A stretch of DNA of 64,000 bases from Pseudomonadota bacterium (GTDB taxonomy: Bacteria; Myxococcota_A; UBA796; GCA-2862545), in the NCBI GenBank assembly GCA_023954855.1, contig JAGSGY010000024.1:1-64000 (forward strand), written 5' to 3'. A model generated the notes under the pieces. It saw nothing but the letters and a program-made list of their open reading frames with translations. It searched no databases and had not been told where the DNA came from. Of the stretch, positions 6,185 to 48,400 are shown in pieces. The position numbers and the translations under genes were made by a program. How positions within the stretch are numbered: position 1 is the first letter of the stretch; each line of letters starts with the position of its first letter.

Positions 6185-6223
6185 GCCGTCCTCCCACGCT
6201 GGAAAGGACCCGCGCGAGGACCC

Positions 6224-7093: not shown

Positions 7094-7255
7094 CGAAGCT
7101 CCTTCGAGGTCGGAGGCTAGCATCGGGCGAGCCCCGCTCGCTAACCGATCTGGCCGGGCCCCGGCTTTCGACAATCGACGGTGCAAAACGTCATGGAACG
7201 GTGGAACCACGCGCGAGAAAACCCCACTTCTGCGCAAAGGAATTAGGAGTTCGCC

Positions 7256-17920: not shown

Positions 17921-19560
17921 TCGCAGCCTTCGTCGACGGTTCCGTCGCAGTTGTTGTCTGCGCCGTCGCAGAGCTCGACCGTCATCTGCGGCGACGCCCA
18001 GTAGTTCCCGTCGTTGCAGTCGCCATCGGTGACCGAAAAGCCATCCCCGTCGACGTCGAGCACGCCCTCATCCACTCGACCGTCGCAGTCGTCGTCGTCG
18101 CCGTTCACGACCTCATCGGCCCCGCGGTGCACGTCGATGTTGTCATCGTCGCAGTCGCCGTGACGCTCGGTGTCGCCATCGCCATCATCGTCCACGAAGT
18201 CCGAGCCCTCGTCAATGGTGCCATCACAGTCGTCGTCGACACCGCGGCTGTTCTCGGCGCACCCGGGGCAGATGGTGACGTCGTTGTCGTTGCAGTCGCC
18301 GTTGAGCTCACTCGTTCCGTCGCCGTCGTCGTCGTAGCCGTCGAAGCCCTCGTCGACTTTGTTGTCGCAGTCGTTGTCCTTGCCATCCGCGAGCTCATTG
18401 GCTCCCGGGAACACCGACGGGTCGTCGAGACAGTCACCCGCAGCCTCAGTGAATCCGTCGCCGTCGGGGTCGGAGGGTGAGGTACCGCCTTCGTCGATGG
18501 TGCCGTCGCAATTGTCGTCGATGCCGTTGTCTGGGGTCTCCGGGTGGCTGGGGTGCGCCACATCGCCGTCAAAGCTGGCGTCGAGGCCATCGGTGCAGTC
18601 ACCGGGAGTGGCCGTGCCGTGACACTGCAGAGTGCCCGCGCCGTAGTCGAAGCCCTCGCAGTAGCTGTCACCGTCGTCATCGGAGCCCGCCGTTCCCTCA
18701 TCGACGCGCGTGTCGCAGTCTTGGTCTTCGTGGTCGGCCACTTCCCTGACGTGGGGGCCGACCTGGTCGTCGCCGTCGTCGCAGTCTCCAAAGCAGTCGG
18801 CAAGCCCGTCATCATCGAAGTCGTACTTGTTGACCTCGCCGTTGCCGCAGTCGTTGGCGTAGATCGGCATCTGTGTCTGGCTATTGCCGTCGATCGCGAA
18901 GTCGACGTAGCTGGCGACTGGGCTGAGGTCGGTCACGTCGATCTGGATGGTGACGGTCGAAGACTGCCCCGCAGGCACATAGTAGGAGCCCTCCCAGGTC
19001 GTGAGCACGCCGCTGCCCGTCGTCACCCTGACATCCGTGTCGACGAGGCTCTCGTTCTCGATGCGCACAGTCGCCGTCTGGGACTGGTTCGGGTCCACCG
19101 GGCCAAAGTCGTGTCCACCGCGCGACAAGCGAATCTTCGGAGCCTCGACGCGGGAGCTCACGTACGCGCTCGCCGAGCCGCCCGCGGTCTGAAGCACCAC
19201 GCGGGTGAGGTTTGGACCCGCCGGTGCAGAGAGACTGGTGTTCACATCGATCGGGAGCGGGTTGCCTGGCGAGACCTCGTAGTCCTGGTAGTCGCCGAGA
19301 ATGCGAAACCCGTCGCCAAGCTGGCCCTCGAGCACCACTCCCGTCACAGTGACATCGCAGCTGGCCTGAAACACCAACGTGGCGTACCGGTCGGCATCCG
19401 ACGTCAACGTCCCGAGATCGACCCACTCCTGCTCGACACTCAGACAGTCATTGCTTCCGCCGTTCGCGACCGCGCGTGCAGAGTCGCGGAGATCCGGACG
19501 GATCAAGCACCCCGAGAGCACGAGACAGGTCATCCAGAAGGAGGCCGGTCTCAGCGACAC
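17917..19560 (-). CDS. Lipoprotein with Ig-like (ASH/choice-of-anchor) domain and six MopE-type Asp-rich repeats
   Basis: The 547-residue protein starts with GTG. The signal MSLRPASFWMTCLVLSGC gives Cys18 as the lipid site. Residues ~45-240 are beta-rich, with HDFGPVDPNQSQTATVRIEN marking an ASH/HYDIN-like module. Residues ~248-547 are six metal-binding repeats of the MopE kind (DDDGDG...GDCNDNDV...DDDCDGTIDEG), each with paired cysteines and Asp clusters. MopE of Methylococcus binds copper; calcium binding is also plausible for these acidic loops. The 5' end overlaps the last ten bases of the upstream transmembrane kinase gene, so the two are almost certainly on one transcript. Confidence 0.88.
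   Translation of the reverse strand: MSLRPASFWMTCLVLSGCLIRPDLRDSARAVANGGSNDCLSVEQEWVDLGTLTSDADRYATLVFQASCDVTVTGVVLEGQLGDGFRILGDYQDYEVSPGNPLPIDVNTSLSAPAGPNLTRVVLQTAGGSASAYVSSRVEAPKIRLSRGGHDFGPVDPNQSQTATVRIENESLVDTDVRVTTGSGVLTTWEGSYYVPAGQSSTVTIQIDVTDLSPVASYVDFAIDGNSQTQMPIYANDCGNGEVNKYDFDDDGLADCFGDCDDGDDQVGPHVREVADHEDQDCDTRVDEGTAGSDDDGDSYCEGFDYGAGTLQCHGTATPGDCTDGLDASFDGDVAHPSHPETPDNGIDDNCDGTIDEGGTSPSDPDGDGFTEAAGDCLDDPSVFPGANELADGKDNDCDNKVDEGFDGYDDDGDGTSELNGDCNDNDVTICPGCAENSRGVDDDCDGTIDEGSDFVDDDGDGDTERHGDCDDDNIDVHRGADEVVNGDDDDCDGRVDEGVLDVDGDGFSVTDGDCNDGNYWASPQMTVELCDGADNNCDGTVDEGCD
17921..18818 (-). repeat. Six tandem MopE-type repeats in the protein
   Basis: Each repeat of about 42-65 codons follows D-x-D-G-D-G...GDC-x-D...(D/N)-x-D-C-D-x-x-(V/I)-D-E-G. 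The copies differ considerably in sequence, unlike the near-identical tether minisatellites, and one is lengthened by an insert (near 18560-18690). Confidence 0.8.
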
Positions 19561-21326
19561 ACGAGCCCCGAGCTGTAGCAGGTGACGGTGCGGGTCTCAC
19601 CGGCGGAGACGGTGACCTTGCCCGCGGTCATGGCAGCGCCGTCACCGAAGAAGGCCTGCACCGTGTAGGTACCCGGCGCGAGCTCTCCGGCCTTGTGGCG
19701 CCCCCCACTGGAGTCGATGAACAGGGCGCCGTCTGCGTCACCAGCGAGGGTGACCAGGGCCTTGCTCATGTCTCGGGTCGATGCGGGCAGCGGCGGCGGT
19801 GCGTTGGGGGCCGGATCGATCACCGCCAAGTTTGGAGCGGGCGCCACCACTGGCGCGGGCGGAGCCGGCGCGGTGACGGTGACCACCTTCGGCTTGGGTG
19901 TGGGTCTCGGCGAAGGCGTCGGACGCGGAGTGGGCTTCGCCGCAGGCTCCGCCGCGGGCTTCGCCGCGGGCTTCGCCGCGACCGCTTCGACGGGCTCTGG
20001 CTCTGGCTCGACAGGCGCTTCTTCCGGGGTGAGCGCGTCGGCCGGCGTCGCTTCTACAGGTGCGTCAAGCGCTGGCTCGCGGACCTCTGCAGGCTCGACC
20101 TCGGTCGACCCGCCCGCCATCATGCCGCCGCCGATGGCACCGATGCCGACAAGAGCCACACCCGCAACCACGGCGAAGCTCAAGGCCACGCCAGCGGCCA
20201 GGCCCATCCACATCGAGCTTCGGCCCGGGGGAGGACTCTGGCTTGGCGCCGGAGTGACCAGCGACCCACCACCCGCGGGTGCAAGCGAGGCTCCATGGTC
20301 GTTCACGGCGCTCTGAAACTGGGAAGGCGGCTCCACGGCGGCCTGCGACCCGCCTGAGAGCGCCATCGACTCGCCCCCCATCCACGTCTCGTGTGACTGC
20401 GGCGCCTGCGCAATGGCCGGCTCATCAGGGTCTGCCGAGCCGAGGGCCGCTGCCTGATGCAGCAGCGTCCCCGTCCACGGGCCACCCGCAGCAGGGGCCT
20501 CGCCACCGCCGTCGAGCTCGGCAATCAGTGACGTACAGCTATCGAGGCGCTGATCGCGATCGGTCTCGAGGGCTCGCGCCACGGCCGAGGCTAGCCGCTC
20601 GGGAAGCTCCGGAATCTTGTCGAGAAGCGGGGTGTACTGCGAGCCAAGCACCCGATTGAAGATGCTGGGAAGGTCCGGCCCGTCGAAGGCCTGCTCTCGC
20701 GTCAGCAGCTCATAGAGAATGGCGCCGAGGCTGAAGATGTCGGCCCGCTGGTCCACATTCTTCGAGTCGCGGATCTGCTCGGGCGACATGTAGGCCGGCG
20801 TGCCCATCGTCATGCCCGAGCGCGTGCGGCCCAGCCCACCATCACTCTCGAGCACCTTGGCCAGGCCAAAGTCCGTCACCTTGGGAATCAACTTCCCTCG
20901 ACGAATCTCGATCAGCACATTGGCCGGCTTGAGATCACGATGAATCAGACCGTGCTCATGGGCGTAGTCCACGCCCGCCACAATCCCGCGAAATACAGCC
21001 TCGGCCTGCTCGACCGACAGCGGCGTCTCGCGAAGCAGATCCTCGAGCGAGGGCCCAGAGATGTACTCCATGACTAGGCCGGGCGCGCCCTGCACCGTCA
21101 CCACATCGGTCACCGACACAATGTTGGGGTGACGAAGCGACGCCTGCACTCGCCCCTCCTGCAACAGGCGCTCGCGTACCGAGGACGAGGTCATCGTCAG
21201 CACTTTCAGCGCGTGCTGTGTGCCGAGCTGGTTGTGGCGCACCTTGTACACCACGGCCATGCCGCCCTGGCCCAGTAGGCCTTCGACGGTGTAGCGCTCC
21301 ACGACAGTGCCAGGATTGAGGTCCAT
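19551..21326 (-). CDS. Transmembrane Ser/Thr protein kinase with extracytoplasmic Pro-rich linker and PEGA-like domain
   Basis: The 591-residue protein starts at MDLNPGTVVERYTVEGLLG. It has an intact Hanks kinase domain: Gly loop GQGGMA (19-24), catalytic Lys41, HRDLKPAN (129-136), DFG (152-154) and SPE (181-183). A linker is followed by one membrane segment (~388-415, GLAAGVALSFAVVAGVALVG), then a Pro/Ala/Glu/Lys-rich stretch and a C-terminal PEGA-like beta domain (GALFIDSSGGRHKAGELAPG). The layout is that of a sensor kinase with the tail outside the inner membrane. The 3' end overlaps the MopE-repeat lipoprotein gene by ten bases, suggesting that the lipoprotein is a partner or target. The divergent SDR gene starts 80 bases away. 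Confidence 0.93.
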   Translation of the reverse strand: MDLNPGTVVERYTVEGLLGQGGMAVVYKVRHNQLGTQHALKVLTMTSSSVRERLLQEGRVQASLRHPNIVSVTDVVTVQGAPGLVMEYISGPSLEDLLRETPLSVEQAEAVFRGIVAGVDYAHEHGLIHRDLKPANVLIEIRRGKLIPKVTDFGLAKVLESDGGLGRTRSGMTMGTPAYMSPEQIRDSKNVDQRADIFSLGAILYELLTREQAFDGPDLPSIFNRVLGSQYTPLLDKIPELPERLASAVARALETDRDQRLDSCTSLIAELDGGGEAPAAGGPWTGTLLHQAAALGSADPDEPAIAQAPQSHETWMGGESMALSGGSQAAVEPPSQFQSAVNDHGASLAPAGGGSLVTPAPSQSPPPGRSSMWMGLAAGVALSFAVVAGVALVGIGAIGGGMMAGGSTEVEPAEVREPALDAPVEATPADALTPEEAPVEPEPEPVEAVAAKPAAKPAAEPAAKPTPRPTPSPRPTPKPKVVTVTAPAPPAPVVAPAPNLAVIDPAPNAPPPLPASTRDMSKALVTLAGDADGALFIDSSGGRHKAGELAPGTYTVQAFFGDGAAMTAGKVTVSAGETRTVTCYSSGLVCR

Positions 21327-21406
21327 CGACGCGAGTTTAGCCCGACGAACAGCCGATGCATGCGCGGGCCGGCAGCTGTGCGACAATGGAGGCCGCGGAG
21401 ACAGTA

Positions 21407-22216
21407 ATGGCCCGGATCGACCTCAACGCAAAGACCGTTCTGATCACGGGAGCCGCCGGGGGCATCGGGAGCGCACTTGCACGAGCCTTTGCCGCTCGTG
21501 GGGCCCATCTTGCGCTCGCGGACCGCGACGAGGACGGTCTGACCAAGCTCGCAGACGCCCTCGATGCCGAAGTGAGCACCCACGTCATCGACCTCACCGA
21601 GCGCGACGCCATCGGCCCCCTCATCGACGACGCACTCGCACACCACGGCCGTCTCGACGTGGTGGTCTGCAATGCCGGTTGGACAGTCCACGGCCCGTTC
21701 TCGGAGATGACCCTCGACCAGATCGATGGCGTGCTGGAGGTCGACCTTCGGAGCGTGCTGCACCTGGTTCATCACGCGCTCCCGCACTTCGAAACCGGCA
21801 GCCACATCGTTCTGGTCAGCAGTATGGCGGGCTTTCGCGCCTTTCCGTATCAGACGACGTACAGCGCCGCGAAGCACGGAGTGGCTGGCTACGGAGACGC
21901 GCTACGGCTCGAGCTCGCGAGCAAAGACATCGGCGTCACCACGCTCATGCCAGGCGCCATCGCGACGGCCTTTCTCTCGAACGGAGGCTCCCTCGACTCT
22001 GAGAGCACGGACCAGATGGCCACGTTGATGCAGCGCTGGGGCACCCCTCCCGAAGCCGTGGCGGCCGCCGCGCTGCGAGGCATCGACCGCAACCGCGGAC
22101 GCATGCGCGTCGGATGGGATGCCCACATGACCGCGCTGACCGGATGGCTCATGCCTCCCCTACTCCCAGCCGTTCTCGCCTGGGCGACCCGCCGGCAGCT
22201 GCTGGGTCGCTCATGA
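21407..22216 (+). CDS. Short-chain dehydrogenase/reductase
   Basis: The start at 21407 has GGAG six bases upstream; an upstream in-frame ATG at 21386 is less likely. The 269-residue protein has the classical SDR set: TGAAGGIG (14-21) for NAD(P) binding, NAG (89-91), Ser138/139, and YSAAK with Tyr152 and Lys156. ADRDED after strand two, with Asp at the cofactor-selecting position, favours NAD(H). The C-terminus is hydrophobic (LTGWLMPPLLPAVLAW), suggesting membrane or lipid-substrate association. Its stop overlaps the start of the OYE-family gene (ATGA), indicating a two-enzyme redox operon. Confidence 0.92.
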   Translation: MARIDLNAKTVLITGAAGGIGSALARAFAARGAHLALADRDEDGLTKLADALDAEVSTHVIDLTERDAIGPLIDDALAHHGRLDVVVCNAGWTVHGPFSEMTLDQIDGVLEVDLRSVLHLVHHALPHFETGSHIVLVSSMAGFRAFPYQTTYSAAKHGVAGYGDALRLELASKDIGVTTLMPGAIATAFLSNGGSLDSESTDQMATLMQRWGTPPEAVAAAALRGIDRNRGRMRVGWDAHMTALTGWLMPPLLPAVLAWATRRQLLGRS

Positions 22217-23409: not shown

Positions 23410-24936
23410 GTGCGCTCCTCACTCACCATCGCCGTGCTCGCCCTGGCCTGTACCGCCGCCGAGCCTACGCCCGAGGCTGGGCCGACCCTGTTCTTCGAGG
23501 ACGTGACCGAGGCCGCCGGCATCAACTTCACGCACGCCGCCCCGGTCGGCGCCCTGCCATACGGAACGGGAGCAGCCTGGCTCGACTGCGACGACGACGG
23601 CGACCAGGACTTGTGGCTGACGCAGCGCCAAGGCCCTTCTGCACTCTACGAAAACAACGGCGGCGTGTTCACCAACATCGCGGCGTCCGCGGGCATCGCC
23701 GATGAGGACGCCGACCGAGCGGGCGTCTCAGTCGCCGACTACGACAACGACGGCGTGCTGGACGCCTTTGTCGCCCGCAACGGACAGAGCATTCTGTACC
23801 GCGGCCTCGGCGGATGCCTCTTTGAGGAAGTCGTCGATGCAGGGGTGGCAGGAGACGGCGCGACCCAGTCCGGCTCGTGGGGTGACTTCGATGGAGACGG
23901 ATGGCTGGACCTCGCCACCGTCGATCACACCTCGGTCGAGCTGCCCGCACCCGAAGCCGAGCCGGCCCGTCAGCTCCGCCTATTCGTCAACAACCAGGAC
24001 GGAAGCTTCACCGCAAGCGACGCCCTGCCCACCGAGTCCCCTCCAGGGAGTGGCTTCGCGGCCACGTGGATCGATGTCGACGACGACGGCGACCAAGATC
24101 TTTACACCGTAAACGACGCCTTTCCCGGCCTACCAGGCAATCGTTACTACGAGAACGACGACGGCGTATTCACCGAGCGCTCCGCCGCCGTCGGCCTCGA
24201 CGTCGAGCAGAGTGGCATGGGCTTGGCTGTCGGCGATGTCGACAACGATGGGCGCATGGACCTGGCGGTCTCGAACATCGGTCGCCTTGCCCTGCGCATG
24301 CAGCAGAGCTCTGGCGAGTTCCTCGAACAGGCCGCCGACCTAGGCGCAGGTCGCGATCGCTACGAAGACGACAGCTTCACCACCTGGGGCATTGCCTTCG
24401 CCGACTTCGACAACGACGGCTGGCAAGACCTGTTCGCCGCGGGCGGCGGACTCACCGGCTATTCGCGCTACGACCTGCAGCACAACGGCATCTGGCACAA
24501 CACCGGCGGCCGCTTCGAAGAGTCGATCGAGGGCAGCGGCGGCGAGATGGAGGACGGCTCTGGACGCAGCCTCGCCATTGCCGATGCAAACCAGGACGGC
24601 AGCCTCGACGTCTGGATTACGAACTACGCCGGTCAGGGCCGCCTGCTCCAGAGCCGCCCTACCGACGCGCACTGGCTCGCGATCGAGCTCGAAGGGGTGC
24701 AGTCCAACCGCAGCGGCATCGGCGCCAAGCTCACCCTCACCACCGACGATGGCGCCCAGACGCGATGGGTCCACAGCGGCTCAAGCCTGGGCTCGTCCCA
24801 CGACATCGCCGCCCACTTCGGCATGGCCGATCAGACAAGCGGTGAGCTCGAGATCTTCTGGCCCAGCGGGGTCACTCAGACGCTGAGCGTGGACGCCGAC
24901 CAGCGCCTACACATCGTCGAAGCCGCAGATCGCTAG
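23410..24936 (+). CDS. Lipoprotein with FG-GAP/VCBS beta-propeller and ASPIC/UnbV domain
   Basis: The start is GTG at 23410 with only a G-rich stretch upstream. The product begins MRSSLTIAVLALAC (Cys14). Residues ~30-400 contain repeated calcium-type loops of an integrin-like propeller (DCDDDGDQDLWL, DYDNDGVLDAFV, DFDGDGWLDLA, DVDDDGDQDLY, DVDNDGRMDLA, DFDNDGWQDLF). The C-terminal ~80 residues match ASPIC/UnbV (SNRSGIGAKLTL, then WVHSGSSLGSSHD and LEIFWPSGVTQTL). The role is probably extracellular binding. The gene follows the OYE gene by 36 bases. Its TAG interlocks with the stop of the convergent large kinase gene (ctag). Confidence 0.93.
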   Translation: MRSSLTIAVLALACTAAEPTPEAGPTLFFEDVTEAAGINFTHAAPVGALPYGTGAAWLDCDDDGDQDLWLTQRQGPSALYENNGGVFTNIAASAGIADEDADRAGVSVADYDNDGVLDAFVARNGQSILYRGLGGCLFEEVVDAGVAGDGATQSGSWGDFDGDGWLDLATVDHTSVELPAPEAEPARQLRLFVNNQDGSFTASDALPTESPPGSGFAATWIDVDDDGDQDLYTVNDAFPGLPGNRYYENDDGVFTERSAAVGLDVEQSGMGLAVGDVDNDGRMDLAVSNIGRLALRMQQSSGEFLEQAADLGAGRDRYEDDSFTTWGIAFADFDNDGWQDLFAAGGGLTGYSRYDLQHNGIWHNTGGRFEESIEGSGGEMEDGSGRSLAIADANQDGSLDVWITNYAGQGRLLQSRPTDAHWLAIELEGVQSNRSGIGAKLTLTTDDGAQTRWVHSGSSLGSSHDIAAHFGMADQTSGELEIFWPSGVTQTLSVDADQRLHIVEAADR

Positions 24937-27900
24937 CTCGCATCGCCGCACATCCAGGCCGCTCTGAGGCGCTCTGCGTGCCCATGAAGCTCGGCCGCGA
25001 GCTCCGTCCGTCCAACCTGATCGCAGGAATGAGCCGCGTGCCGGCAGTGCCAGGCCATGTCCGCCAGATGGTGGCCACCGATGGCCTCGCCCTCGAGCAC
25101 CAAGGCCAGCAGCTCACGTACCTTCGACTCCTCGGCCGTCGAGGCCACCAGCAACAAGCGCGTGCTCTGGGCTGTCTCGTCGTCGCCGGGAGAGCGCATC
25201 ATCGCCAGCTCGTACTCGCGCCTTGCGAGCTCACGATGCCCGCGGGCCCAGGCGAGACCGGCCAGGGTCAGGGCATATGCGCGACGCCGGTTTGAAGGGG
25301 CTGCGGAGACACTACGGAGCGCGAGTGGCCACGCCGCCTCGAGGTCTCCGGCCCACCGGTACGCGTTGCAGGCGAGGTAGGCGCAGACGCGCGCGTCGAT
25401 CGCATGTCCGGCCCTTCCGAAGCTCTCGTAGGCTCTGGCGTAGCCCTCTGCACCGGCGAGAGCGTCCCGATCGAGCAGGGCCAGACTCGCCCTTCCCCGA
25501 GCTGCCATCGCGGCCCCGAGAGCCGTTCCGCATCGCGCCCAGGCGGCACAAGACTCGCGCAACACACCCAATGCTTCGGTGCCACGCCCCAAGAATCGCA
25601 GGGCAAACGACAGGTTCCACAGCGCCTTGGCCTCGAGTTCGCCGTCTCCTAGCTCTCGAGCCAAGTCCAGGGCCTGCAAGTTGAGCGCCTCGGACTCGGC
25701 GTACGCATCGAGCATGCCGCGCGCGCGAGCCAGCAGAATGAGCAGACGCACGCGAACCGATCCCTGCGAGCGATCGAGCACCCCCCGCACCACGCGCTGA
25801 ACATCCTCCCGGCGCGCCAGCGCCTCGTAGACCTCAGCAGAGACCAAGGCCCCGTCCACCCGGCGAGGGTCGTCGGCGCCCAGTTCGAGCTCCTCGACGC
25901 AACGCTCCCACTGCTCGGCGGCGGCGAGCGCTAGCTGGACATCTCCGCGCAGCAGGCAGTGGCTTGCCTCGCTCAGGAGATCCGCCAGGGCACGCTCTGG
26001 CAAACCCGCAAGCAGCAGGTGCTGAGCGCGCCGACCGGGCTCGTCAGCTGGCACGACCGCCGCAATCGCCGCGTGGTGTCCCTCGAGTCGCCCACCTCGT
26101 CGAGCCGTCGACAGCAAGCGCTCGCGGGCCTCGGGCGCAAACCGCCACAGGCCGTCATCTTCCATGGAGCCAAGTCCCGCGGTAGCGGCTCGCAGCGGCA
26201 GCTCTGGGTCGGTGTAGTGCGCGACGCGCCAGAACTCCTCTGTGGCCACGACGAGTCCCAGGACGGCTCCTCGCTCAAGTGCAGCGAGGTCCGCGGGAGC
26301 CTGAACCGCAGACTGAACCCGCTCCTCCCACAACTCGGCCTGGTCCCGCGGCAGACCGAGTTCTACCGACTCGAGACGCGTGAGTCCAGAGGGCCCTTGA
26401 ACGAGGGCCGAGACCTTGATCATGTTGGCGACGACCGCCAGTGCGTACCCCGGCAACCCGCCCGTGTGGTGGGCGACTTGTGAGGCCAGTACGGGATCGA
26501 GCCGCGCCGCACGCTCGAGAAGTACGCGGACCGTGTCGACCGGAAGCCGTCCAAGACTCACTTCCACATCGACCGCAGTCGAGGCGCGAACGAACATCGC
26601 GAGGACCGGTCCCTTGAGCGTCTCCCAGATCGGGGCCAGGCGCTCTGCCGCACGGGCGTCCTCGATCGCGACCACCACCGGCCCACGAATCGCCTCGCTC
26701 TGAATCAGCTGCCGCCAGGCCTCCACCGCATCGACGGTCCGTTCTACAGCCGAGATGCAGGTCGCCGCAATCGGGTCGTCCCACGCAAGGCCAAGCCACC
26801 GACAGATCCGAGCATGCGCGTCGTCCGCGTCGCCGGCGATCCCAGCACCGGCAATCAGCGCCATGCGCAGCGGGTCTTCATGAGGCTGTCCGGAGGCCAC
26901 GCGCAGAACCCGACACGCGCCCTCCTCGTGAACCCGCTCGACAAGCCAACGACCGAGCGCCAGCGCCCCCACGCCCCGATGTCCCCGGATGCCGACGCGC
27001 ACGACCGTGGCGCCCTCGACGGCCTTGAGCAGCGCCTCCCAGAGAACATCCTGCTCGACCTCACGTCCGGCGATCGGTGCCCGCGCCGCACCCCAGAACG
27101 CCGTGCCCGGAGGCGGCACGGGCGGAAGCGGCTCCCGGCGCCGTCCAGTGGCGGGAAGCCGCAGCTGCGGAACTGCCAGCGCCTCCATGACGTCCGCCAC
27201 TTCGGCCGCTGGTGCCGCGTCGAGCTCGTCGAGGAACAAGGTGGCCTCTGCGGATGCCTCGAACGCAGATGCGGTGGCATCGACCAACGGTCCAAGATCG
27301 GCCAAGGCCGCCCGGGCGTGTGCCGCCGTCGGAAACCGCTCCGCGGGGTCCTTCGCCAACGCCCGAAGTAGCCAGGCCTCGAGGCGCTTTGGCGCCGCGA
27401 TCCGCGGCGCGATCTCGGGACGGGCCGACAGATGCGCAAGACGCTGCCCCGAGCTGTCCCCCGAGAATGGCGCGGCGCCGCGCACCAGCGCCGCGACAAG
27501 ACATCCGAGCGCGTAGATGTCGGTCGGGGGCCCAAAGAGCGCGCTATCCGCCCGCCACTGCTCCGGAGCCATGTACGCCGGCGTGCCTTGAAGGCGTCGC
27601 TCGGCAGGCAAGCCAAAAGTGGCGAGCCCAAAGTCGGCGAGTTTCACCTGAAAGCCCGTCGCGACCCGATGCACCAGCACGTTGTCGGGCTTGAGATCGA
27701 GGTGGAGCACGCCGCGTGCATGGGCATGGGCGAGCGCCCCGAGAATCGCCTCGACGATCTGCTTCACCTCGTGCCACGGAAGGACGCCGCAGAAAGGTGT
27801 GAGCGGCCCGCCAGCCGCGCGCTCCATCGCCAGCCACGGAAGCCCCTCTCCCACCGACCACGGACCGGAGAGGGCGGTCCCCGCGTCGATCAAGCGCACA

Positions 27901-28202
27901 ATCCCCGGGTGCGCCAGACGCGCAATCACCCTGGCCTCGCGATGCAGAGACGTCGGGTCGAGGGGGTCGCGCAAGATCTTGATCGCCGCGGTGCGCGTTC
28001 CGGACGCGTGCGATGCGGAATGGACCACACCGGCGCCACCTGCACCAAGACGATGGCCCAGCTGCCAGGCGCCGACCGCCTGCCCGCCACCTTCCATTGC
28101 GCGAGCTGCCGCCAGCGCACGCCACCAGCCGCGCTCAGCGAGCCTCTCGACTCCCTGCCCACGGCGCAGCTGCTCTAGCGCCTGCGCTTGGCTGGTGACC
28201 AT
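24933..28202 (-). CDS. Ser/Thr kinase-ATPase-TPR regulator with degenerate P-loop and non-RD kinase
   Basis: The protein has 1089 residues. Its kinase domain (~45-305) has the Gly loop GAGGAG (53-58), Lys75, HLDLKPDN (167-174, Asp169 present but Leu in place of the HRD Arg) and DFG (190-192). From ~380 an AAA/NACHT-like module follows, where the Walker A position reads GHRGVGAL (407-414): the nucleotide-binding Lys is missing. The Walker B region VVVAIEDA has one acidic pair. The last ~400 residues are Ala/Leu-rich TPR-like helices. The architecture equals that of the protein at 45440-48574, which keeps an intact P-loop. No membrane segment is seen; likely cytoplasmic signalling. Confidence 0.9.
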   Translation of the reverse strand: MVTSQAQALEQLRRGQGVERLAERGWWRALAAARAMEGGGQAVGAWQLGHRLGAGGAGVVHSASHASGTRTAAIKILRDPLDPTSLHREARVIARLAHPGIVRLIDAGTALSGPWSVGEGLPWLAMERAAGGPLTPFCGVLPWHEVKQIVEAILGALAHAHARGVLHLDLKPDNVLVHRVATGFQVKLADFGLATFGLPAERRLQGTPAYMAPEQWRADSALFGPPTDIYALGCLVAALVRGAAPFSGDSSGQRLAHLSARPEIAPRIAAPKRLEAWLLRALAKDPAERFPTAAHARAALADLGPLVDATASAFEASAEATLFLDELDAAPAAEVADVMEALAVPQLRLPATGRRREPLPPVPPPGTAFWGAARAPIAGREVEQDVLWEALLKAVEGATVVRVGIRGHRGVGALALGRWLVERVHEEGACRVLRVASGQPHEDPLRMALIAGAGIAGDADDAHARICRWLGLAWDDPIAATCISAVERTVDAVEAWRQLIQSEAIRGPVVVAIEDARAAERLAPIWETLKGPVLAMFVRASTAVDVEVSLGRLPVDTVRVLLERAARLDPVLASQVAHHTGGLPGYALAVVANMIKVSALVQGPSGLTRLESVELGLPRDQAELWEERVQSAVQAPADLAALERGAVLGLVVATEEFWRVAHYTDPELPLRAATAGLGSMEDDGLWRFAPEARERLLSTARRGGRLEGHHAAIAAVVPADEPGRRAQHLLLAGLPERALADLLSEASHCLLRGDVQLALAAAEQWERCVEELELGADDPRRVDGALVSAEVYEALARREDVQRVVRGVLDRSQGSVRVRLLILLARARGMLDAYAESEALNLQALDLARELGDGELEAKALWNLSFALRFLGRGTEALGVLRESCAAWARCGTALGAAMAARGRASLALLDRDALAGAEGYARAYESFGRAGHAIDARVCAYLACNAYRWAGDLEAAWPLALRSVSAAPSNRRRAYALTLAGLAWARGHRELARREYELAMMRSPGDDETAQSTRLLLVASTAEESKVRELLALVLEGEAIGGHHLADMAWHCRHAAHSCDQVGRTELAAELHGHAERLRAAWMCGDAS

Positions 28203-30039: not shown

Positions 30040-31446
30040 TCATCTTCCCGCAAGGATCTGCCCAGCCCCGATTCGCGCGAGACTCGCGATCGTGATCTGG
30101 GGGTTCACGCCCGGGGCCTCGGGGAAAGCACTGCCATCGAGCACCCAGAGATTCTTCTGGCCGACCACCCGCCCATCTGCATCGGTGGTGGTTCCGCGAC
30201 AGGCCCCACCAAAGGGGTGCGCGGCGTACTGGTAGAAGCCGCCCGCGATCATCGGCAAGTCGTCGCTCGGAGGCTTGGTGACCCAGCGCTCGGTGCCGTG
30301 TGCAAGGAGCACCCGCTTTGCCCCAGCGGCCAGGTAGAGCTCGGTCATGCGCTGGTAGAAGTGCCGCAGCCTGTCGGTGTCTTCAGGAATCGTCGGGTAG
30401 TCGATGACGGGCCGATTGCCCGGGCCGAGCCGAATCGAGCCCCGTGCCTTGCTTCGAACGAGCGACAGCGCCCCAGCGAGATGGCGATACCGCGCCAAGA
30501 TCTCTTCCGTGGCATCGCCCTCGGCCATCGGCTGCACACTGAACGCAACCGGCTGAACTGCAATGCCCTCTACGACGTACCCAGGACCGGTCCGGCCATA
30601 GACATCGGCAAACTCGAGCACCCCGTACGACATCGGAATGCCGTTGTACGGGTCGAGCACCTCGTCGAAGTCGCCCCAAGCCACCGTCGAGAGATGCAAC
30701 TGCACGCCGGAGCCGGCCTCGATGCCGCTGGCCAAGAGAAGCCGAGGTGTCTGCACCACCCCCGCACAGACCACGACGATGTCGGCCTTGAGATCGCCCT
30801 GGGTGTCCGTGTGCACCGTCCACCCATCCCCGTCGGGGGAGAGGGACAAGGCGCGCGTCTCGGCCAACAGCTGCGCTCCGGCAGCCAGTGCCTTCGGTAC
30901 GAATGACAAGTTCATCGACTGCTTGGCGTTGTACGAACAGCCAATGTGCCGGTAGCCGCACTGCACACAGCCGACGCTGTTGTGGTGCAACCGCTCGCCA
31001 TGCCACCCGAGCCGAGCGGCACCAAGGCCGAGCTTGTAGTTGGCCGCGTTGATCATCGTCCGCGGAATCTCGGAGACCTGCATGACCTCTTCGACGACCG
31101 CCACCTCGGTCATCAGTGCGTCCCAGTCGAGCTTCACGCCGTAGGCGGACCAGCGGTCGACCAGCTCCGGAGGAGGGCGAAAGCAGATCGCGTCATTGAT
31201 GAGCGTCGATCCGCCAACCGCGCGCCCCTGCAGAATCGAGACAGAGCCATCCTCGGTCCCCTGCGCCCCGGCGACCGCGTAGATCTTGGGCACCATCTCG
31301 CGCTCACTCTGGTTGAGGTCGCGGGCGAGTAGATGCTTGCCGGCCTCGACAATGGCGACGCCGTCTCCCCACTGCTCAGCGAGACGATGCGCGGCCGGCG
31401 CACCGCCCGCACCCGAGCCAATCACGATGGCCTTGAAGCGACTCAT
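30040..31446 (-). CDS. GMC family FAD-dependent oxidoreductase (large subunit)
   Basis: The 468-residue protein starts MSRFKAIVIGSGAGGAPAAH, the FAD-binding GxGxxG being residues 10-15. Further GMC features are LQGRAVGGSTLIND near residue 75, a Cys-rich stretch (SVGCVQCGYRHIGCSYNAKQ, residues ~165-185), and the C-terminal HPFGGACRGT and VLDGSAFPEAPGVNPQITI blocks that carry the catalytic region. It lacks its own signal peptide. Its start overlaps the stop of a Tat-signal small subunit (ATGA), as in gluconate, sorbitol or fructose dehydrogenases, where the flavin subunit is carried across by its partner. The substrate is unknown, most likely an alcohol or sugar. Confidence 0.92.
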   Translation of the reverse strand: MSRFKAIVIGSGAGGAPAAHRLAEQWGDGVAIVEAGKHLLARDLNQSEREMVPKIYAVAGAQGTEDGSVSILQGRAVGGSTLINDAICFRPPPELVDRWSAYGVKLDWDALMTEVAVVEEVMQVSEIPRTMINAANYKLGLGAARLGWHGERLHHNSVGCVQCGYRHIGCSYNAKQSMNLSFVPKALAAGAQLLAETRALSLSPDGDGWTVHTDTQGDLKADIVVVCAGVVQTPRLLLASGIEAGSGVQLHLSTVAWGDFDEVLDPYNGIPMSYGVLEFADVYGRTGPGYVVEGIAVQPVAFSVQPMAEGDATEEILARYRHLAGALSLVRSKARGSIRLGPGNRPVIDYPTIPEDTDRLRHFYQRMTELYLAAGAKRVLLAHGTERWVTKPPSDDLPMIAGGFYQYAAHPFGGACRGTTTDADGRVVGQKNLWVLDGSAFPEAPGVNPQITIASLARIGAGQILAGR

Positions 31447-32027
31447 GGCACCGCCTCGTCCCACACCACGGCCACAGTCTGGCCAGGAGGCCGCCCGGTC
31501 GAGATGCAAGGCCCGGGGTGACCCATGAGGTCCTTACTCCCGGCCTCGACCGCGGTGAACGACGAGACCGTCGCCGCATGCAACGACCCCCAGATGGTGC
31601 GGTGAACCGCTAGGGAACTCGTCTTCCAACCGGTGAGAAAGGCAACCTGCTTGTCTCTGGACATCCGACTGAAGCCGGTCAGGCCTAGGGTCCACTCCTC
31701 GAGCAAGAGAATGCCGAGCTTGAGGTCCCGACGCCGATCGGGGGCCAGATCACCGAGCATGCCGTCGACATGGCCTGCGGGGTCCCATCGGCCCTCGAGA
31801 TAGGCGGCCTCGGCCGAGTCTCCGAGCATCGCGAGCGCCACCGCCACCACGATGGCCTCATGCCGCGTGGACATGTACTGGAGGCGTTCGGCGGGTAACG
31901 GCACACGGGGTTCCTGAGCTCCCCAGAGTGCTCGCGCCCCCACCTTCATCGCTGCCAGGCCGCCCAGGCCGGCGATACCAGCCAGAAGAAAGTCCCGTCG
32001 CCGCAGTCTGCTCGGTGGTTCAGCCAT
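31443..32027 (-). CDS. Tat-exported small subunit for the GMC dehydrogenase
   Basis: The 194-residue protein carries a twin-arginine signal (RLRRRDFLLAGIAGLGGLAAM, residues ~7-27). The mature helical part resembles gluconate 2-dehydrogenase subunit 3 family proteins (YMSTRHEAIVVAVALAMLGD, DLKLGILLLEEWTLGLTGFSRMS, TSSLAVHRTIWGSLHAATVSSF). In that family the subunit escorts the folded flavoprotein through the Tat pore. The 4-base overlap with the GMC gene supports a stoichiometric complex. It is divergent from the diheme cytochrome gene with 117 bases between them. Confidence 0.87.
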   Translation of the reverse strand: MAEPPSRLRRRDFLLAGIAGLGGLAAMKVGARALWGAQEPRVPLPAERLQYMSTRHEAIVVAVALAMLGDSAEAAYLEGRWDPAGHVDGMLGDLAPDRRRDLKLGILLLEEWTLGLTGFSRMSRDKQVAFLTGWKTSSLAVHRTIWGSLHAATVSSFTAVEAGSKDLMGHPGPCISTGRPPGQTVAVVWDEAVP

Positions 32028-32144
32028 GCGGGCATGCTACTGGACGCGCCTCGTTTCGCCTATGCTGGAAGCAAAGAGCACCCCGCGATGTTTGTCGAGA
32101 TACAGATCGCGCGACTGCAGCGGTCACTGCCGCCCGGAGACGCC

Positions 32145-32876
32145 ATGAAGCCCACGACCCGATTCGCGATTCTCGCAAGCCTTGGCCTCGGGACCCTCGC
32201 CACCGTGGCCCTTGCGGGTTCCGCCACGGACGGCACGGTCAAGCCGCGCGTCGTGACCAAGATGCACACGCAGTTCGCCATCGCCACCGAGGCGCGCGAT
32301 GCCGTCATCCACGGCGACCTGACCGCTGCCCAGGCAGCGGGAGCTGAGCTCGAAAACTTCAGCATCAAGAACTCGCTTCCCGACCAGTGGCGGCCGATGC
32401 TCGCCGAGACCAAGGCCGCAGCGGCGGCCCTGTCGACGGCCCCTGACCTGCAGACCGCCAGCGGCCTGATCGGCGACCTCGCGCTGTCGTGCGCTGGCTG
32501 CCACGCCGTGACCGGCGGCGGCCCCAACCTTCAAGAGGTGCCGCTTCAAGAGTGGAGCCAGGCCGCGAAGATGCCCCTGCACAAGTGGTCAGCCGACTGG
32601 ATGTGGCTCGGCCTGATCAGTGGCGAAGAAGAAGCGTGGAAGCGCGGCGGCTTCGAGCTGGTCAACGCCGATCTCAAGCCCCGCTTCGAGGACGACACCC
32701 CGGGCGAGGGCTTCACCCAGCTCGAGCAGCTCGTCACCGTGGTCGGCGCGATGACCAACGAACAGTCCGTGGAGCCCGCCGAGCGCGCCGAGCTGTACGG
32801 CCAGTTCATCGGCCTCTGCTCCCAGTGCCACACGAAGATGCAAGAAGCCGGACGCAAGGCCGCGCCGCCTCAGTAG
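32145..32876 (+). CDS. Periplasmic diheme c-type cytochrome
   Basis: The start at 32145 has GGAG five bases upstream. The 243-residue product has a Sec signal (FAILASLGLGTLATVALAG) and two heme-binding motifs, CAGCH (116-120) and CSQCH (~225-229). Helical segments with Trp and Met flank each motif (PLQEWSQAAKMPLHKW; AERAELYGQFIGL), as in multi-helix cytochromes. It is probably the electron acceptor for the divergently encoded GMC dehydrogenase; canonical enzymes of that type use a triheme subunit, so two hemes is a difference. The next gene begins at the base after its stop, implying co-translation with a patatin. Confidence 0.9.
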   Translation: MKPTTRFAILASLGLGTLATVALAGSATDGTVKPRVVTKMHTQFAIATEARDAVIHGDLTAAQAAGAELENFSIKNSLPDQWRPMLAETKAAAAALSTAPDLQTASGLIGDLALSCAGCHAVTGGGPNLQEVPLQEWSQAAKMPLHKWSADWMWLGLISGEEEAWKRGGFELVNADLKPRFEDDTPGEGFTQLEQLVTVVGAMTNEQSVEPAERAELYGQFIGLCSQCHTKMQEAGRKAAPPQ

Positions 32877-33629
32877 ATGGCGCTCGGAATTGCCTTCGAG
32901 GGCTGTGCGGTACGCGCGACCTTTCAGATCGGTGCGCTCACCTGGTTCCTCGACCGGGGCGTGGGCTTCGGCGCCACCGGCGGTTCGAGCTCCGGTTCGA
33001 TCGTGGCGGCAAGTCTCGCCGTCGACCGTGTCGAGACCCTCGAAGCCATGTGGCTCGAGCTTGCGGACACCCCGGTGTTTCGGCCGCGACGAGTCCTGCG
33101 TGGGCGCTGGCCCTACGCGATGAGCCACATCCTCGGCGATGCGCTGAGCAACGGCTTCGGCGCGCGCCGCATGTGCGATGCGCAGATGCCCCTGGTGATC
33201 ACGCTGTCGCAACTTCGCAGGCGCGGCGTGACGAGTCGACTGCTCACGCACTTCGACACCATCCCCATCGCTCGCGCGGTCCGAGCCTCGTGCTTCATCC
33301 CGGGTCCGTACTCGCGCATGGTGCCCATCGGCAGGCGGCTCACCTTCGACGGTGCCTGGAAGGTGCGAACTCCGGTACAGGCCGTCGGTGACCTCGGCGC
33401 GGACCGCGTAATTGCCGTCGTATCGAACCCCGAGGGCCGGCTGCGGCGGGGCGGGCTGCGCAGCCAAGGTCCCCTCGCGAGACCCACGGTCGATCACCGC
33501 ATCCTCGCACCGCTGCGGCCCCTTCCGCTCGCGGGATTCGACTTCGACCGCCCACGCGTCATCGAGGCCATGGCCATCGGCCGGGACAGCGCGGCTGCCT
33601 TCGCCCGAGCCCACGAGTCCTGGCTCTAG
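32877..33629 (+). CDS. Patatin-like phospholipase
   Basis: The 250-residue protein starts at the ATG directly after the cytochrome stop. Patatin marks are FEGCAVRATFQIGALTW (oxyanion/Arg loop), the nucleophile elbow GSSSG with Ser38 (residues 36-40), and the second catalytic residue in TFDGAW (Asp157). No signal or membrane segment is seen, so it is probably cytoplasmic or peripheral. It is shorter than many RssA-type patatins but both dyad residues are present, so it should be an active acyl hydrolase. Why it is coupled to a cytochrome c gene is unclear. Confidence 0.9.
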   Translation: MALGIAFEGCAVRATFQIGALTWFLDRGVGFGATGGSSSGSIVAASLAVDRVETLEAMWLELADTPVFRPRRVLRGRWPYAMSHILGDALSNGFGARRMCDAQMPLVITLSQLRRRGVTSRLLTHFDTIPIARAVRASCFIPGPYSRMVPIGRRLTFDGAWKVRTPVQAVGDLGADRVIAVVSNPEGRLRRGGLRSQGPLARPTVDHRILAPLRPLPLAGFDFDRPRVIEAMAIGRDSAAAFARAHESWL

Positions 33630-34336: not shown

Positions 34337-35941
34337 CTAGAGCTTGCGCAAGTAGCGAATCGCCTTGATCGGCTCGACTGCGGCCGCGCCAAGCACGCCG
34401 CCCATCATCGCTCCGACCACCCCCACGCCCGAGACCTCGCTTCCAGAGAAGTACAGGCCCTTGATCGGCGACCTCGGTCGCAGCCAGGGGTTCTGGAAGC
34501 GCTCAGGTGTAGGCTCGATTCCGTAGATCGAGCCGCGCATGGGCCGCACGAAGTGCTGGGTCGTCGCAGGGGTCCCCAGCTCAGAGAAGGCAAGCAGCGG
34601 CTCGAGCTCCGGCATCTCCTCGAAGAACTGCTTGAGCAGCGCATCGTGCAGGCGCTTCTTCATCGCCTCGTACTCGGGACCGCGCTTCTTCCAAGCGAGC
34701 TTGGCGTAGGGCTCGAACACACTCCAGGGCACGAAGGTGACCGCTTCTCCGGTGTGAATCTGCTCCTCGCCCGGGTCGTGCTCGGGGTCCTTGAGCGAAG
34801 GGAAGCTGCAGTACAGCACCTTCGCCGGCGGAAGCTCGCCCTCGGTATCGATCTCCCAGACGTCCTCTTCGGAGGACCAGGTGCGCCAGAACCACTTGTT
34901 CGCGGAGCCTGCACCGGCAGCGCGAATGTCGCCCTTGAAGCCCATGTACAGGCAGACGTGTGCGGAAGCCGGGTTCAGGCTCTGAATTGAGTCGACCCAG
35001 TCCCCGGTGACGGAGCGCGGAAGCAGACGCTTGGTCGTCGCCATGATGCCCGCCGCGCTGACGATGTTGCGCGCGCGAAGCTCCTCTCCGGACTCGAGAC
35101 GAACGCCAACGGCCCTGCCCTTCTCGATGAGGATCTCTTCGACGGACGCATAGACCCGCGTCCAACCACCCGCCTCGGCGACGGTCCGCAGCAGCTCTTC
35201 GGCGATGCGACCGGAGCCACCCACCGGGTAGTACGCGCCATGGAAGAAGTGGCGGACGACGAGTGCCTGCATGGCGAAGGAGGAGCGACTCGGGACGGAA
35301 CCGTAGTAGCCCCATTGCGCGGCGAGGATGGTGCGCAAGCGGGGGTTGTCGGTGAGTCCGGCCAAGACATCGGCGGTCTTCCTGCCAAGCCACTCACTCG
35401 ACGCACTCGCGAACAGCCGGTCGGCAATCGGCCCCAGTCGCTTGGGCGCGAGACGCGACAGGTAATGGCCACTCATCGAGCGACCGACCTGGCGACACAG
35501 ACCGAGAAACTCGTCGATGGCCTCGCGCTCGTCGGGGAAGGCCGCGATCAGGTTCTCGCGGAACTGCTTGCGATTGCCCGCAAAGTCGATGCGAAAGTCA
35601 TCGGGGAAGTAGAACTCCTCGTAGACATCGCCGAGCGAGGCCCACTCGAGCTTGCCGTCGGTGAGCTTCTTGAGGATGCGACCGGGCATGCTCTTGCCCG
35701 CCACTTCACCAACCGCATGCACGCCGACGTCCCAGGTCCACTTCTTGCGCCGGAAGGTGTGGGTGAAGCCGCCGGGGACGTAGTGCTGCTCGAGGACGAG
35801 CACGCGATGGCCGAGCTTGGCGAGCATGGCTGCGGTCGTCATGCCGCCGATGCCGGACCCAATCACGATGGTGTCGTAGGGCCCACTGTGGTCGGCATCG
35901 CCGCCCGCCTTGTTCCAGAACTTCGGGCGCTTCTCAGTCAT
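34337..35941 (-). CDS. FAD-dependent oxidoreductase of the RetSat/CrtISO (phytoene desaturase-like) family
   Basis: The 534-residue protein starts MTEKRPKFWNKAGG with GAGGA before the ATG. The dinucleotide fold is DTIVIGSGIGGMTTAAML (~24-40), continuing LVLEQHYVPGGFTHTF as in carotenoid isomerases and all-trans-retinol saturases. The C-terminal FAD-contact region reads GLYFSGSEVSGVGVVGAMMGG. Family members saturate or isomerise conjugated polyenes, but bacterial members also act on other lipids. The gene overlaps the end of rbgA by eight bases, so it is read from the same message. No other carotenoid genes are adjacent. Confidence 0.88.
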   Translation of the reverse strand: MTEKRPKFWNKAGGDADHSGPYDTIVIGSGIGGMTTAAMLAKLGHRVLVLEQHYVPGGFTHTFRRKKWTWDVGVHAVGEVAGKSMPGRILKKLTDGKLEWASLGDVYEEFYFPDDFRIDFAGNRKQFRENLIAAFPDEREAIDEFLGLCRQVGRSMSGHYLSRLAPKRLGPIADRLFASASSEWLGRKTADVLAGLTDNPRLRTILAAQWGYYGSVPSRSSFAMQALVVRHFFHGAYYPVGGSGRIAEELLRTVAEAGGWTRVYASVEEILIEKGRAVGVRLESGEELRARNIVSAAGIMATTKRLLPRSVTGDWVDSIQSLNPASAHVCLYMGFKGDIRAAGAGSANKWFWRTWSSEEDVWEIDTEGELPPAKVLYCSFPSLKDPEHDPGEEQIHTGEAVTFVPWSVFEPYAKLAWKKRGPEYEAMKKRLHDALLKQFFEEMPELEPLLAFSELGTPATTQHFVRPMRGSIYGIEPTPERFQNPWLRPRSPIKGLYFSGSEVSGVGVVGAMMGGVLGAAAVEPIKAIRYLRKL

Positions 35942-44673: not shown

Positions 44674-45405
44674 ATGAAACCCCCTACACTCCGAGTCTCC
44701 ACACTCGCTTGGGTCGCTGCCCTCGCCACACTCGTCGCCTGCGCGCATCGACCCCGACCCGATGCCGCCGCCGAGGCCCCCTCGCAGGCACCTGAGATCC
44801 TCGAGGACTCGCCCCCGATTGACCCGGGTCTTCATGCGCCCACTCCAGCACACGCGTTCCTCCAAGATTTCGAGGGCGACTTCACGACGCTCTTCAACGA
44901 GCTCTCGGGCGAGGAAGTCGGACATGCGGTCACCCGGGTCGGCCCCGGTCTGGTGCACGGCGTGCCCTGTGAGGCGACCGTGCACGCCTACGACGACACC
45001 TGGGGCTGCACCCTGTTCGAGGCCCACGCGCTCGACGAGCACACGCAGGCTGCAGGGTCGTGGATCGGGTTGTACTACGGAAGCACCCAGCGGCGTGCCC
45101 TCGTGCTCGAGAGCCTGGTCACCCCAGCCGAGAGCGTGACGGTGGCCGACACGGAGTGTGCGGACTTCGTGCACTTCCACGCGGATGGTTCACTCGAGCG
45201 CTGCGAGCTGAGCGAGGGACGGGATTTCGCGGGCACTCGCTATCCAGCGGGCTCCTCGATCGCGTTGCGTCCCGACGGCTCGGTCTATGAGGCCTTCGTC
45301 TACGAGACCGTGATGATCGGACAAACCGAAGTACAGCCCGGCTATGTCGCGCTGGACCCCTCGGGGGCGGTGACCTCGACCTCTCCGGAGTTCTTCGGGG
45401 ACTGA
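44674..45405 (+). CDS. Lipoprotein of unknown function with MORN-like repeats
   Basis: The start at 44674 (second of two tandem ATGs) has GGGAG five bases before it. The 243-residue product has a signal ending in ALATLVAC (Cys ~23) and a Pro/Ala linker. Its C-terminal ~90 residues (FHADGSLERCELSEGRDFAG, then YPAGSSIALRPDGSVYEAF) resemble the YwqK/MORN-variant repeat (DGxLxxxxLxxxxxFxGxxYPAGxxIxF). Function is unknown. It sits between the purple acid phosphatase and the large kinase on the same strand. Confidence 0.72.
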   Translation: MKPPTLRVSTLAWVAALATLVACAHRPRPDAAAEAPSQAPEILEDSPPIDPGLHAPTPAHAFLQDFEGDFTTLFNELSGEEVGHAVTRVGPGLVHGVPCEATVHAYDDTWGCTLFEAHALDEHTQAAGSWIGLYYGSTQRRALVLESLVTPAESVTVADTECADFVHFHADGSLERCELSEGRDFAGTRYPAGSSIALRPDGSVYEAFVYETVMIGQTEVQPGYVALDPSGAVTSTSPEFFGD

Positions 45406-45439
45406 CTCGCCCGTGCCACAATGCCCTGCGGAGGCAGTG

Positions 45440-48400
45440 GTGACGACCCTCGGTCCATTCGAGCTGGACAGGTTGCTCGGGCGGGGCGGCATGGGTGAAG
45501 TCTGGGCCGCCACCCATACCCACACCGGCCTGAAGCTGGCTGTGAAGCGCGTGATCTCGGATGACGCCGCCGCATTCGCCGGGGAGTTCGCCAACGAAGT
45601 CCGCGCGGTGGCTGGCCTCGACCACCCCGGCATCGTTCGCGTGTTTGACCGGGGCGTCGACGACAGCGGACGACCATGGCTTGCAATGGAGCGCGCTGAG
45701 GCTCCTCTGGACATTCGGCCCCCACGCCGCTGGTCTGTGCTGCGTCACACGCTCATGCAGATGCTGAGCGCGCTGGCCCACGCCCATGCAAGGGGCGTCA
45801 TTCACCGCGACCTGAAGCCGTCGAACGCCCTGGTCTGCGAGGACGGACGTGTGGTGCTCGCAGACTTCGGTCTCGCATGGGCTCTAGACCAGGGGGCTGC
45901 GCGGACGGCGGGCTCCCCCGGCTTCATGGCCCCAGAGCAAGTGACGGGTCGTTGGCGCGACTACGGCGCATGGACCGATCTCTACGCACTCGGCGCCACG
46001 GCATGGGAGCTGTCGTGCGGGCGGCCCCTCTATCAACGTGAGTCTTTGCGCGAGCTGCTCAGAGCCCAGCTTCACGACGAGCCTGAGCCCTATCGTCCAG
46101 CGATGGCCGTCCCCGAGGGCTTCGAGGCCTGGCTGCATCGCTGTCTGGCCAAGCTGCCGAGCCACCGCTTTCCCAATGCCGCGGCCGCCGCCCTCGAGCT
46201 TGGAAAGCTCGGTCCCGCTCACGGCGTGGGCGCCCCTGCGCCCAAAGCGAGGGCCCTGCCCACCCTCACCTTCTCGCTAGGCTCCCTTCCCGTTCCCACA
46301 CAAAACAGCGACGAGGTCGATACGCCAGCGACGGCCCTCACCCCGCCCCAAGACTGGCGACAGGATGAAGACCGAGGCTCCCGGTGGGTGCAAGGCCTCG
46401 GTCTAGGGCTGTTCGCCCTTCGCCCGGCCCCACTGAGCGGTCGGGCCGCCATCCAAGACCAGCTGTGGGCGACTCTGCACGAGGTCTGCGCGGGGGCCTC
46501 GAGAAGCGTCGTGCTGTGCGGAGCCGCAGGGGTCGGAAAGAGCCGTCTCGCCGAGTGGCTGGTGCAGCGTGGCCTGGAGGTCGGCGCGGTCGACCAGCTC
46601 CGGATCCGCGACGATCTTCGAGAGGCATTGCTCGACCGTCTCCACGCGCGCGGCCTCAATGCGAGTGCGACGGCAGCGAGAGCCAGGCGGCTTGGCATCG
46701 CCGTCTCAGACGCGGTGGGGGCCTGGCTCGCCGGCGACGACACGCCCTCGCCCTCGACACAGCTTCAGCTCACCCTCGCGGTCGCCGATGCGCTGAGCGC
46801 GCGCAGGCCTCTGGTGGTGTGGCTGGACGATCCGCAGGCGCTCGGTCAGCGGCTGGCTCGACACCTCGCGACGTTGCCAGGTCCAGTTCTCAGCCTCGTC
46901 TCCATCCGAGGCACGGTTCCGGAGTCCCTCTCACAGGCCGAGGGCATCGAAGTACCGGCTCTCGATGAGAGCGGAGCGAAGGCCCTAGCGAAGGATCTAC
47001 TGCTTCTGGACGAGGCGCTGGTTGAACGCCTCGTCGAGCGCGCCGACGGCAACCCGCTGTTCGCCGTGAGGATTGTGGCCGACTGGGTCGGAAAGGGTTG
47101 GCTGCGCCCGGGTCCCTCAGGATTCGAGCTGACGCCTGCCGCCCGATCGGAGGTCCCCGACGACCTTCATCAGCTCTGGCTCCGCGAGGTGGAGCGCAGT
47201 GTCGGCGCGATTCCCGATCACGCCCATCTGATGCACTTGTTGGCCCTTCTGCCCGTGCCCGCACAGCTTCCGCAGTGGCGTCGCATCGCGACAGCTCGCG
47301 GCCTGGAGGCGAACGCCACGCTGATCGAGAACCTCCTTGATGCCGGTCTCGGCACCGTCGACGCCGACAGCTTTCGCTTCGCACATGGCTTGTTCCGCGA
47401 GAGCATGGTCAGAGCCGCCCGAGAGCAGCGCGACCCCAACCTCTGGCGCGAGCTCGCTGCAGACCTGGCGCAGGCCCCGGCGACGTCTGTACTGGCGGGT
47501 CAGACATTCCTCGAATCCGGTTCCGCACAGCAGGCGCTCGAGCCTTTGATCCAGGGGGTCACCTACGCAGCTCGAGTGCGCGATCACCCGACGGTCGACG
47601 TCGCCACAGCTTGCTTCGACCAAGCCGCCGCCAGCCTGGGTCTGCCCCCTGATTCGCCTTTTCGCCAGCAGATGGCCGAGGAGACGGCGCTCGTTCCGAC
47701 CACCCGGCGCGACCCGGGCGCCAGCGCAAAGCTCGCCGCCCTCGAAGAGCAGGCCGAGGCCCTTGGCTGGACCAATCTGACGGCACGCGTCTGGCATGCA
47801 CGTGCGGCCGAGGCCCTGATTACAGGCCAACTCCACGACGCGATTCGCCTGGCCACCAAGGCACAGGAACTCGCCGCCGCCAGCGAGACGCCCCGAACCA
47901 TTCGGGCCGTCGCCGGAGTCCTCGGGTCCGCCTACATCGCAGTCGCCCGCCTCAACGACGCGGAACGGGCCTACCGCTTCGCGCTGTCGTACGGAGAGGG
48001 CTTGAAGGAAGCCCACGTCGCCCTCGCCGAGATCGCACTGGGTCGCGGCGACGCGGAGGGCGCGCGAGCACACCTCGACAAGGTCTCTCTGGGCGCGGAC
48101 ATCATCTTGCGGGTCAATCACGCAATGATCTCGGGGGAGCTCGCCTGGGAAACCGGGGACACCCACCTCGCCATCGACCAATTTCGCGTGGCAGAGCGCA
48201 TCATGCTCGCCCTCAGGCACGATGAGATTGCCTTGCCGCGAATGTGTCTTGGACTCTCCCTAGTGATGGACGACCGCCTCGAAGAGGCCGCGGAGCAGCT
48301 ACGCGGCCTGAAGTCGTCACTCACCGGAGACTACGGCATCATTCAAAGACTCGCCTTCGCGGCGGCAGGTGATCAGCAAGCCCTGGCGGCTGTACGGGAA

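Follow-up and report, generated by a model that had tools for sequence, protein, structure and literature searches.

The locus examined here raises the question of whether four adjacent genes of a myxobacterial genome, encoding a GMC flavoprotein, a Tat-signal small subunit, a diheme c-type cytochrome and a patatin-like hydrolase, belong to one enzyme system. A sequence-only reading of the window, the whole 64,000-nucleotide stretch of DNA that was analysed, had proposed that they do, as a periplasmic flavin dehydrogenase with a two-heme carrier and an additional lipid hydrolase. All four ORFs were confirmed as two divergent pairs (Table 1) in the arrangement that this reading had described. 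The start of the GMC gene lies inside the stop of the Tat gene in an ATGA overlap, and the TAG stop of the cytochrome gene (32874-32876) abuts the ATG of the patatin gene at 32877. At the cytochrome and patatin genes a simple ORF caller selected overlapping shadow frames, and homology was used instead. Co-regulation would be consistent with the stop-to-start abutment and with the short gap between the divergent genes. The reading that we favor, with a probability of roughly 0.7, is a two-gene periplasmic FAD-dependent alcohol dehydrogenase module of the GMC alpha-gamma type located beside two unrelated genes.

Table 1. Coordinates of the four genes and the divergent gap in the window
Feature	Position	Strand	Size and evidence
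GMC flavoprotein (P0001)	30040..31446	-	468 aa; PF00732 (GMC_oxred_N) 1.6e-31, PF05199 (GMC_oxred_C) 1.3e-14
Tat-signal small subunit, hitchhiker-like (P0002)	31443..32027	-	194 aa; PF13618 via relatives
Divergent intergenic gap, Tat gene / cytochrome gene	32028..32144		117 bases
Exported diheme c-type cytochrome	32145..32876	+	243 aa; Sec-type leader, two CXXCH
Patatin-like hydrolase	32877..33629	+	250 aa; PF01734, GSSSG and DGA motifs

The GMC protein has the Rossmann GxGxxG motif, catalytic His410 and Asn448, and a Cys160/Cys163/Arg166/Cys170 motif; in the GMC alignment His410 was invariant and Asn448 lay within GVNPQ. It carries no signal peptide, as is typical of the catalytic subunit with a His/Asn active site in the alpha-gamma-beta complexes. 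In a 64-row tree the protein and its genus orthologue were placed among myxococcal GMC proteins, split from cholesterol oxidase-like proteins with 100/100 support and from fructose dehydrogenase (FDH) and FAD-GDH by a branch with 99/97 support; the FDH and FAD-GDH rows in this tree are segments with parts missing, and deep branching within the myxococcal set is without resolution. Of the two placements that the sequence-only reading had wished to tell apart, the one with cholesterol oxidases is thereby excluded, and the one with the FDH and FAD-GDH subunits did not appear either. The score against the cholesterol oxidase-like family NF058674 was 72.8 bits compared to a curated cut-off of 850, which together with the tree position rules out a cholesterol oxidase. 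MftG was ruled out as well by a score far below its curated cut-off. GMC proteins 30-40% identical to the window protein are frequent in the phylum; outside the genus, no further relative with E < 1e-75 was found among 379 genomes of the phylum, and a scan of genome contigs with the GMC protein gave no relative.

The Tat protein, with the N-terminus MAEPPSRLRRRDFLLAG, did not reach PF13618 or match any other Pfam family. PF13618 (Gluconate_2-dh3, the FAD dehydrogenase subunit known as the "hitchhiker") was matched by 20 of the 28 aligned Tat proteins scanned singly, with which the window protein itself aligns, and we therefore regard the window protein as a divergent hitchhiker relative, connected via these intermediates and not directly. 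Searching the PDB with the Tat-family profile recovered mainly Tat or similar leader peptides of other proteins and not the gamma chain of the Burkholderia cepacia FAD-GDH (BcGDH). AF2 run on the single sequence of this subunit gave a model of too low quality to be informative (pLDDT 41). When 94 related genomes were searched with the Tat protein, one clear orthologue was recovered, from the same genus; another 29 genomes contained weaker relatives. In that same-genus genome (G001, contig C41) the GMC and Tat orthologues, with 64% and 51% identity respectively, adjoin each other with the same ATGA overlap. Of about 40 Myxococcota loci examined, nearly all have a same-strand Tat-signal ORF just upstream of GMC, and the window pair has this co-directional order with the Tat gene immediately upstream. 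GMC and Tat genes thus form a genuine two-gene module that is widespread across Myxococcota. The window pair probably encodes an FAD-dependent alcohol dehydrogenase that acts in the periplasm and owes its export to the small subunit, and the earlier assignment to the alpha-gamma type of the gluconate, fructose and glucose dehydrogenases is upheld by the PF13618 matches of the Tat relatives and by the recurrence of the pair through the phylum. A lipid-derived alcohol, the substrate suggested earlier, was supported by none of the results. Our search of the literature on GMC hitchhiker pairs in Myxococcota found nothing on point. Each of the two genus members also has a second GMC/Tat pair (L103 on contig C52 of G000 and L107 on contig C115 of G001); unlike the window pair it looks syntenic, since the same downstream genes follow in the same order, as judged from similar first residues.

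The other two genes were evaluated by their company in related genomes. Of the features of the locus, the ATGA pair alone was conserved elsewhere in the relatives examined; neither the divergent arrangement nor the abutment of the cytochrome and patatin genes occurred in any of them, and the four genes were not found together in any. No CXXCH gene was present within the 18 kb examined around the same-genus pair, no convincing CXXCH gene stood alongside the other GMC/Tat pairs examined, and about 40 other GMC regions all lacked a cytochrome of the window type nearby. Relatives of the window cytochrome were likewise never near another GMC/Tat pair. Two flanking window genes have their G001 counterparts on contigs other than the GMC/Tat contig, and there is therefore no conserved gene order here apart from the pair; for the window GTPase gene, the same-genus genome had no clear orthologue. 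The surroundings in the window include a CrtI/carotenoid isomerase-like flavoprotein of 534 aa (34337-35941, minus strand), with relatives of 48-67% identity in all five related genomes tested, a serine/threonine kinase-like protein of 1089 aa (24933-28202, minus strand), and kinase-like frames at 19551-21422 and 45374-48574, both recognized from their resemblance to a single kinase in L099.

These results bear on the proposal that the locus encodes one periplasmic four-gene dehydrogenase, with the diheme cytochrome standing in for the triheme subunit and the patatin freeing the substrate from lipid. The proposal draws on the adjacency of the genes, the 117-base divergent gap, the abutting stop and start, and a cytochrome that is exported and diheme, and is opposed by an arrangement that is unconserved even inside the genus and by the occurrence of the pair without a cytochrome throughout the phylum. 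A four-gene complex was rejected on this lack of conservation, and the proposal as a whole is very unlikely, the type of the cytochrome and the location of the patatin (below) also counting against it. The cytochrome and patatin are probably outside the dehydrogenase module and look like chance neighbours; gene adjacency by itself does not make a complex. The sequence-only reading had also named, as evidence that would count against it, a cytochrome/patatin pair kept in relatives without the GMC/Tat pair. Members of the cytochrome family are indeed found where GMC/Tat is missing, but patatin is missing there too, and the cytochrome/patatin pair is thus not conserved at all.

The genus comparison rests on one other genome, and for this reason the cytochrome and patatin may have been recruited recently, in this lineage only. 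A related alternative keeps the GMC/Tat pair as we propose it and has the diheme protein recently recruited in this species as the electron acceptor, with the patatin incidental. The genes have a divergent, promoter-sharing arrangement, and both products reach the periplasm. In the family alignment each heme domain has, close to its beginning, a Met that is mostly conserved (M40 and M143) and would suit a six-coordinate electron-transfer heme. Given that the arrangement was present in no second genome and that the cytochrome paralogues lie far from any GMC/Tat pair, we consider this alternative unlikely.

The CXXCH motifs of the cytochrome are CAGCH and CSQCH, and both are invariant in the 19-member alignment of the diheme family. 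Pfam gave sub-threshold matches to cytochrome families only. The two halves of the protein align with each other over their length at about 8e-11. With the family profile, the PDB matches were mostly cytochrome c', c-556, small soluble cytochrome c and b562, at marginal E values of 0.004 to 0.1, and the triheme FDH and FAD-GDH subunits appeared only at E 0.07 and 0.59. AF2 with four sequences predicted two four-helix bundles with a CXXCH in the last helix of each (pLDDT 72, pTM 0.72). Foldseek of this model returned generic helical proteins with a best E of 0.25, and the cytochrome c' fold was not confirmed. A four-helix bundle with CXXCH near its C-terminus marks class II cytochromes; the AF2 model and the weak profile matches agree on it and Foldseek does not confirm it. 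The protein is described here as two copies of a helical domain that resembles class II (c'/c-556), a type that would set it apart from the class I triheme subunit. A shortened triheme subunit was rejected on the basis of this class II-like duplication.

Relatives of the cytochrome were recovered from 24 of the 94 genomes, including the window's own, which has paralogues on other contigs. A contig scan with four close cytochrome rows gave three loci, in the same places as the genome search; the plasmid records contained no relative. In one genome (G011, contig C545, 5857-12404; L102), three copies of the diheme family are present within about 6.6 kb, near genes that appear CBS-domain-like from their first residues. 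On contig C61 of the window's own genome (G000; 4496-8205; L109), about 2.8 kb with one gene separates a cytochrome paralogue from the start of a GMC gene of the cholesterol oxidase-like kind; the GMC gene is cut off by the contig end. The place in the dehydrogenase that had been assigned to the diheme protein is not supported, given the same-genus pair without it, its absence near every other GMC region examined and a fold type that differs from the triheme subunit.

The patatin matched PF01734 at 4.8e-14 (53.5 bits, cut-off 27.7) and has both motifs of the Ser-Asp dyad, GSSSG at residue 36 and DGA at residue 158. It starts at the first beta-strand with no signal peptide, which would put it in the wrong compartment for a part in a periplasmic dehydrogenase. 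The same-genus genome has no counterpart, and among the 94 related genomes there were weak matches alone (E 2.5e-7 or worse) in five other genomes. In the 379 genomes of the phylum, relatives were present in 14 besides the window's own, mostly at about 30-35% identity, and in nine of these loci, when looked at, none of the other three proteins of the locus had a relative. The patatin is read as a separate, probably cytoplasmic lipid acyl hydrolase; the suggestion that it is an extra part of the enzyme is not supported, given its absence at the same-genus pair and its lack of an export signal.

The pair itself is ordinary in kind, and the unusual part is a change in the iron-sulfur motif in this genus. 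Hitchhiker-subunit GMC dehydrogenases are studied for direct-electron-transfer sensors, with the iron-sulfur cluster as the relay. A natural Arg at an otherwise always-kept ligand position would test which cysteines the cluster requires. The [3Fe-4S] ligands of BcGDH are Cys212, Cys218 and Cys222, spaced C-x5-C-x3-C (PMC6719666). The window residues aligned to this triad are Cys160, Arg166 and Cys170, with an extra Cys163, and the C-x5-C-x3-C set is absent from the window GMC and its genus orthologue. Both genus members have Arg166 in place of the middle Cys and the extra Cys three residues upstream; in all other aligned rows bearing the cysteine loop, position 166 is Cys. The four-cysteine motif including Cys163 was present in 14 aligned rows, and the cysteine motif is also found in myxococcal cholesterol oxidase-like GMC copies. 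As judged from the alignment, the [3Fe-4S] cluster in this genus would be either re-ligated or lost.

If the cluster is lost, the GMC protein would function as an oxidase or use a soluble acceptor, and the Tat subunit would serve for export only. The Arg at a ligand position in both genus members and the complete absence of the cysteines from two other compared GMC proteins (L155 and L160) point this way, against which Cys160, Cys163 and Cys170 are still present. We hold cluster loss as a tentative reading, possible but on the unlikely side; it is a refinement of the two-gene dehydrogenase and not its opposite. Cys163 could act as a ligand, since the four-cysteine motif that includes it exists in 14 rows. 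In BcGDH, a small-subunit cysteine is bonded to a cysteine beside the cluster (PMC6719666), and by analogy a disulfide between the Tat subunit and the GMC protein is possible in the window pair. A C-terminal tail with a cysteine (Cys174 in the window) is common to the Tat proteins of both genus members and specific to the genus. A bolder combination, in which the rearranged set C-x2-C-x6-C holds the cluster with a matching hitchhiker Cys tail and passes electrons to the tandem class II cytochrome in one species, is highly improbable.

For the favored two-gene module, the GMC subunit would fold in the cytoplasm together with FAD and bind the Tat-signal small subunit, as in its family, and the folded pair would be exported together as proposed from BcGDH and the family. 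In the periplasm the enzyme would oxidize an alcohol at the His410/Asn448 site, and electrons would travel via the iron-sulfur site at the surface, should it still exist, to a diffusible acceptor and not to a dedicated cytochrome. The diheme protein would be an independent, exported electron carrier, class II-like and tandem in type, whose paralogues lie at other places in the genome, and the patatin a separate hydrolase, probably cytoplasmic, acting on lipid acyl groups.

Among known systems, BcGDH (alpha-gamma-beta; PMC6719666, PDB 6A2U/8GRJ/8HDD) and fructose dehydrogenase (7W2J) are the closest. The window pair shares with them a signal-less GMC catalytic subunit, a Tat-signal hitchhiker-like subunit and a cysteine loop in the same place. 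It differs from them in that its GMC protein belongs to a different clade (99/97) and in that the pair is without the membrane-bound triheme class I subunit, its neighbour being an unconserved class II-like protein with two CXXCH; the BcGDH triad is altered to Cys/Arg/Cys plus Cys163. Class II cytochromes (c' and c-556) have the four-helix domain with CXXCH near the C-terminus that is predicted for each half of the diheme protein, whereas the window protein is a tandem fused copy, with a marginal similarity that the fold search did not confirm. Cholesterol oxidase-like GMC proteins (NF058674) have the same GMC fold, and the window protein is outside their clade (100/100). In the verrucomicrobial methanotroph strain IT6, the two-subunit GmcA/GmcB, said to be Tat-exported, was proposed to oxidize small alcohols (PMC8630023); likened by description and not by sequence, it provides a precedent for a two-subunit GMC pair.
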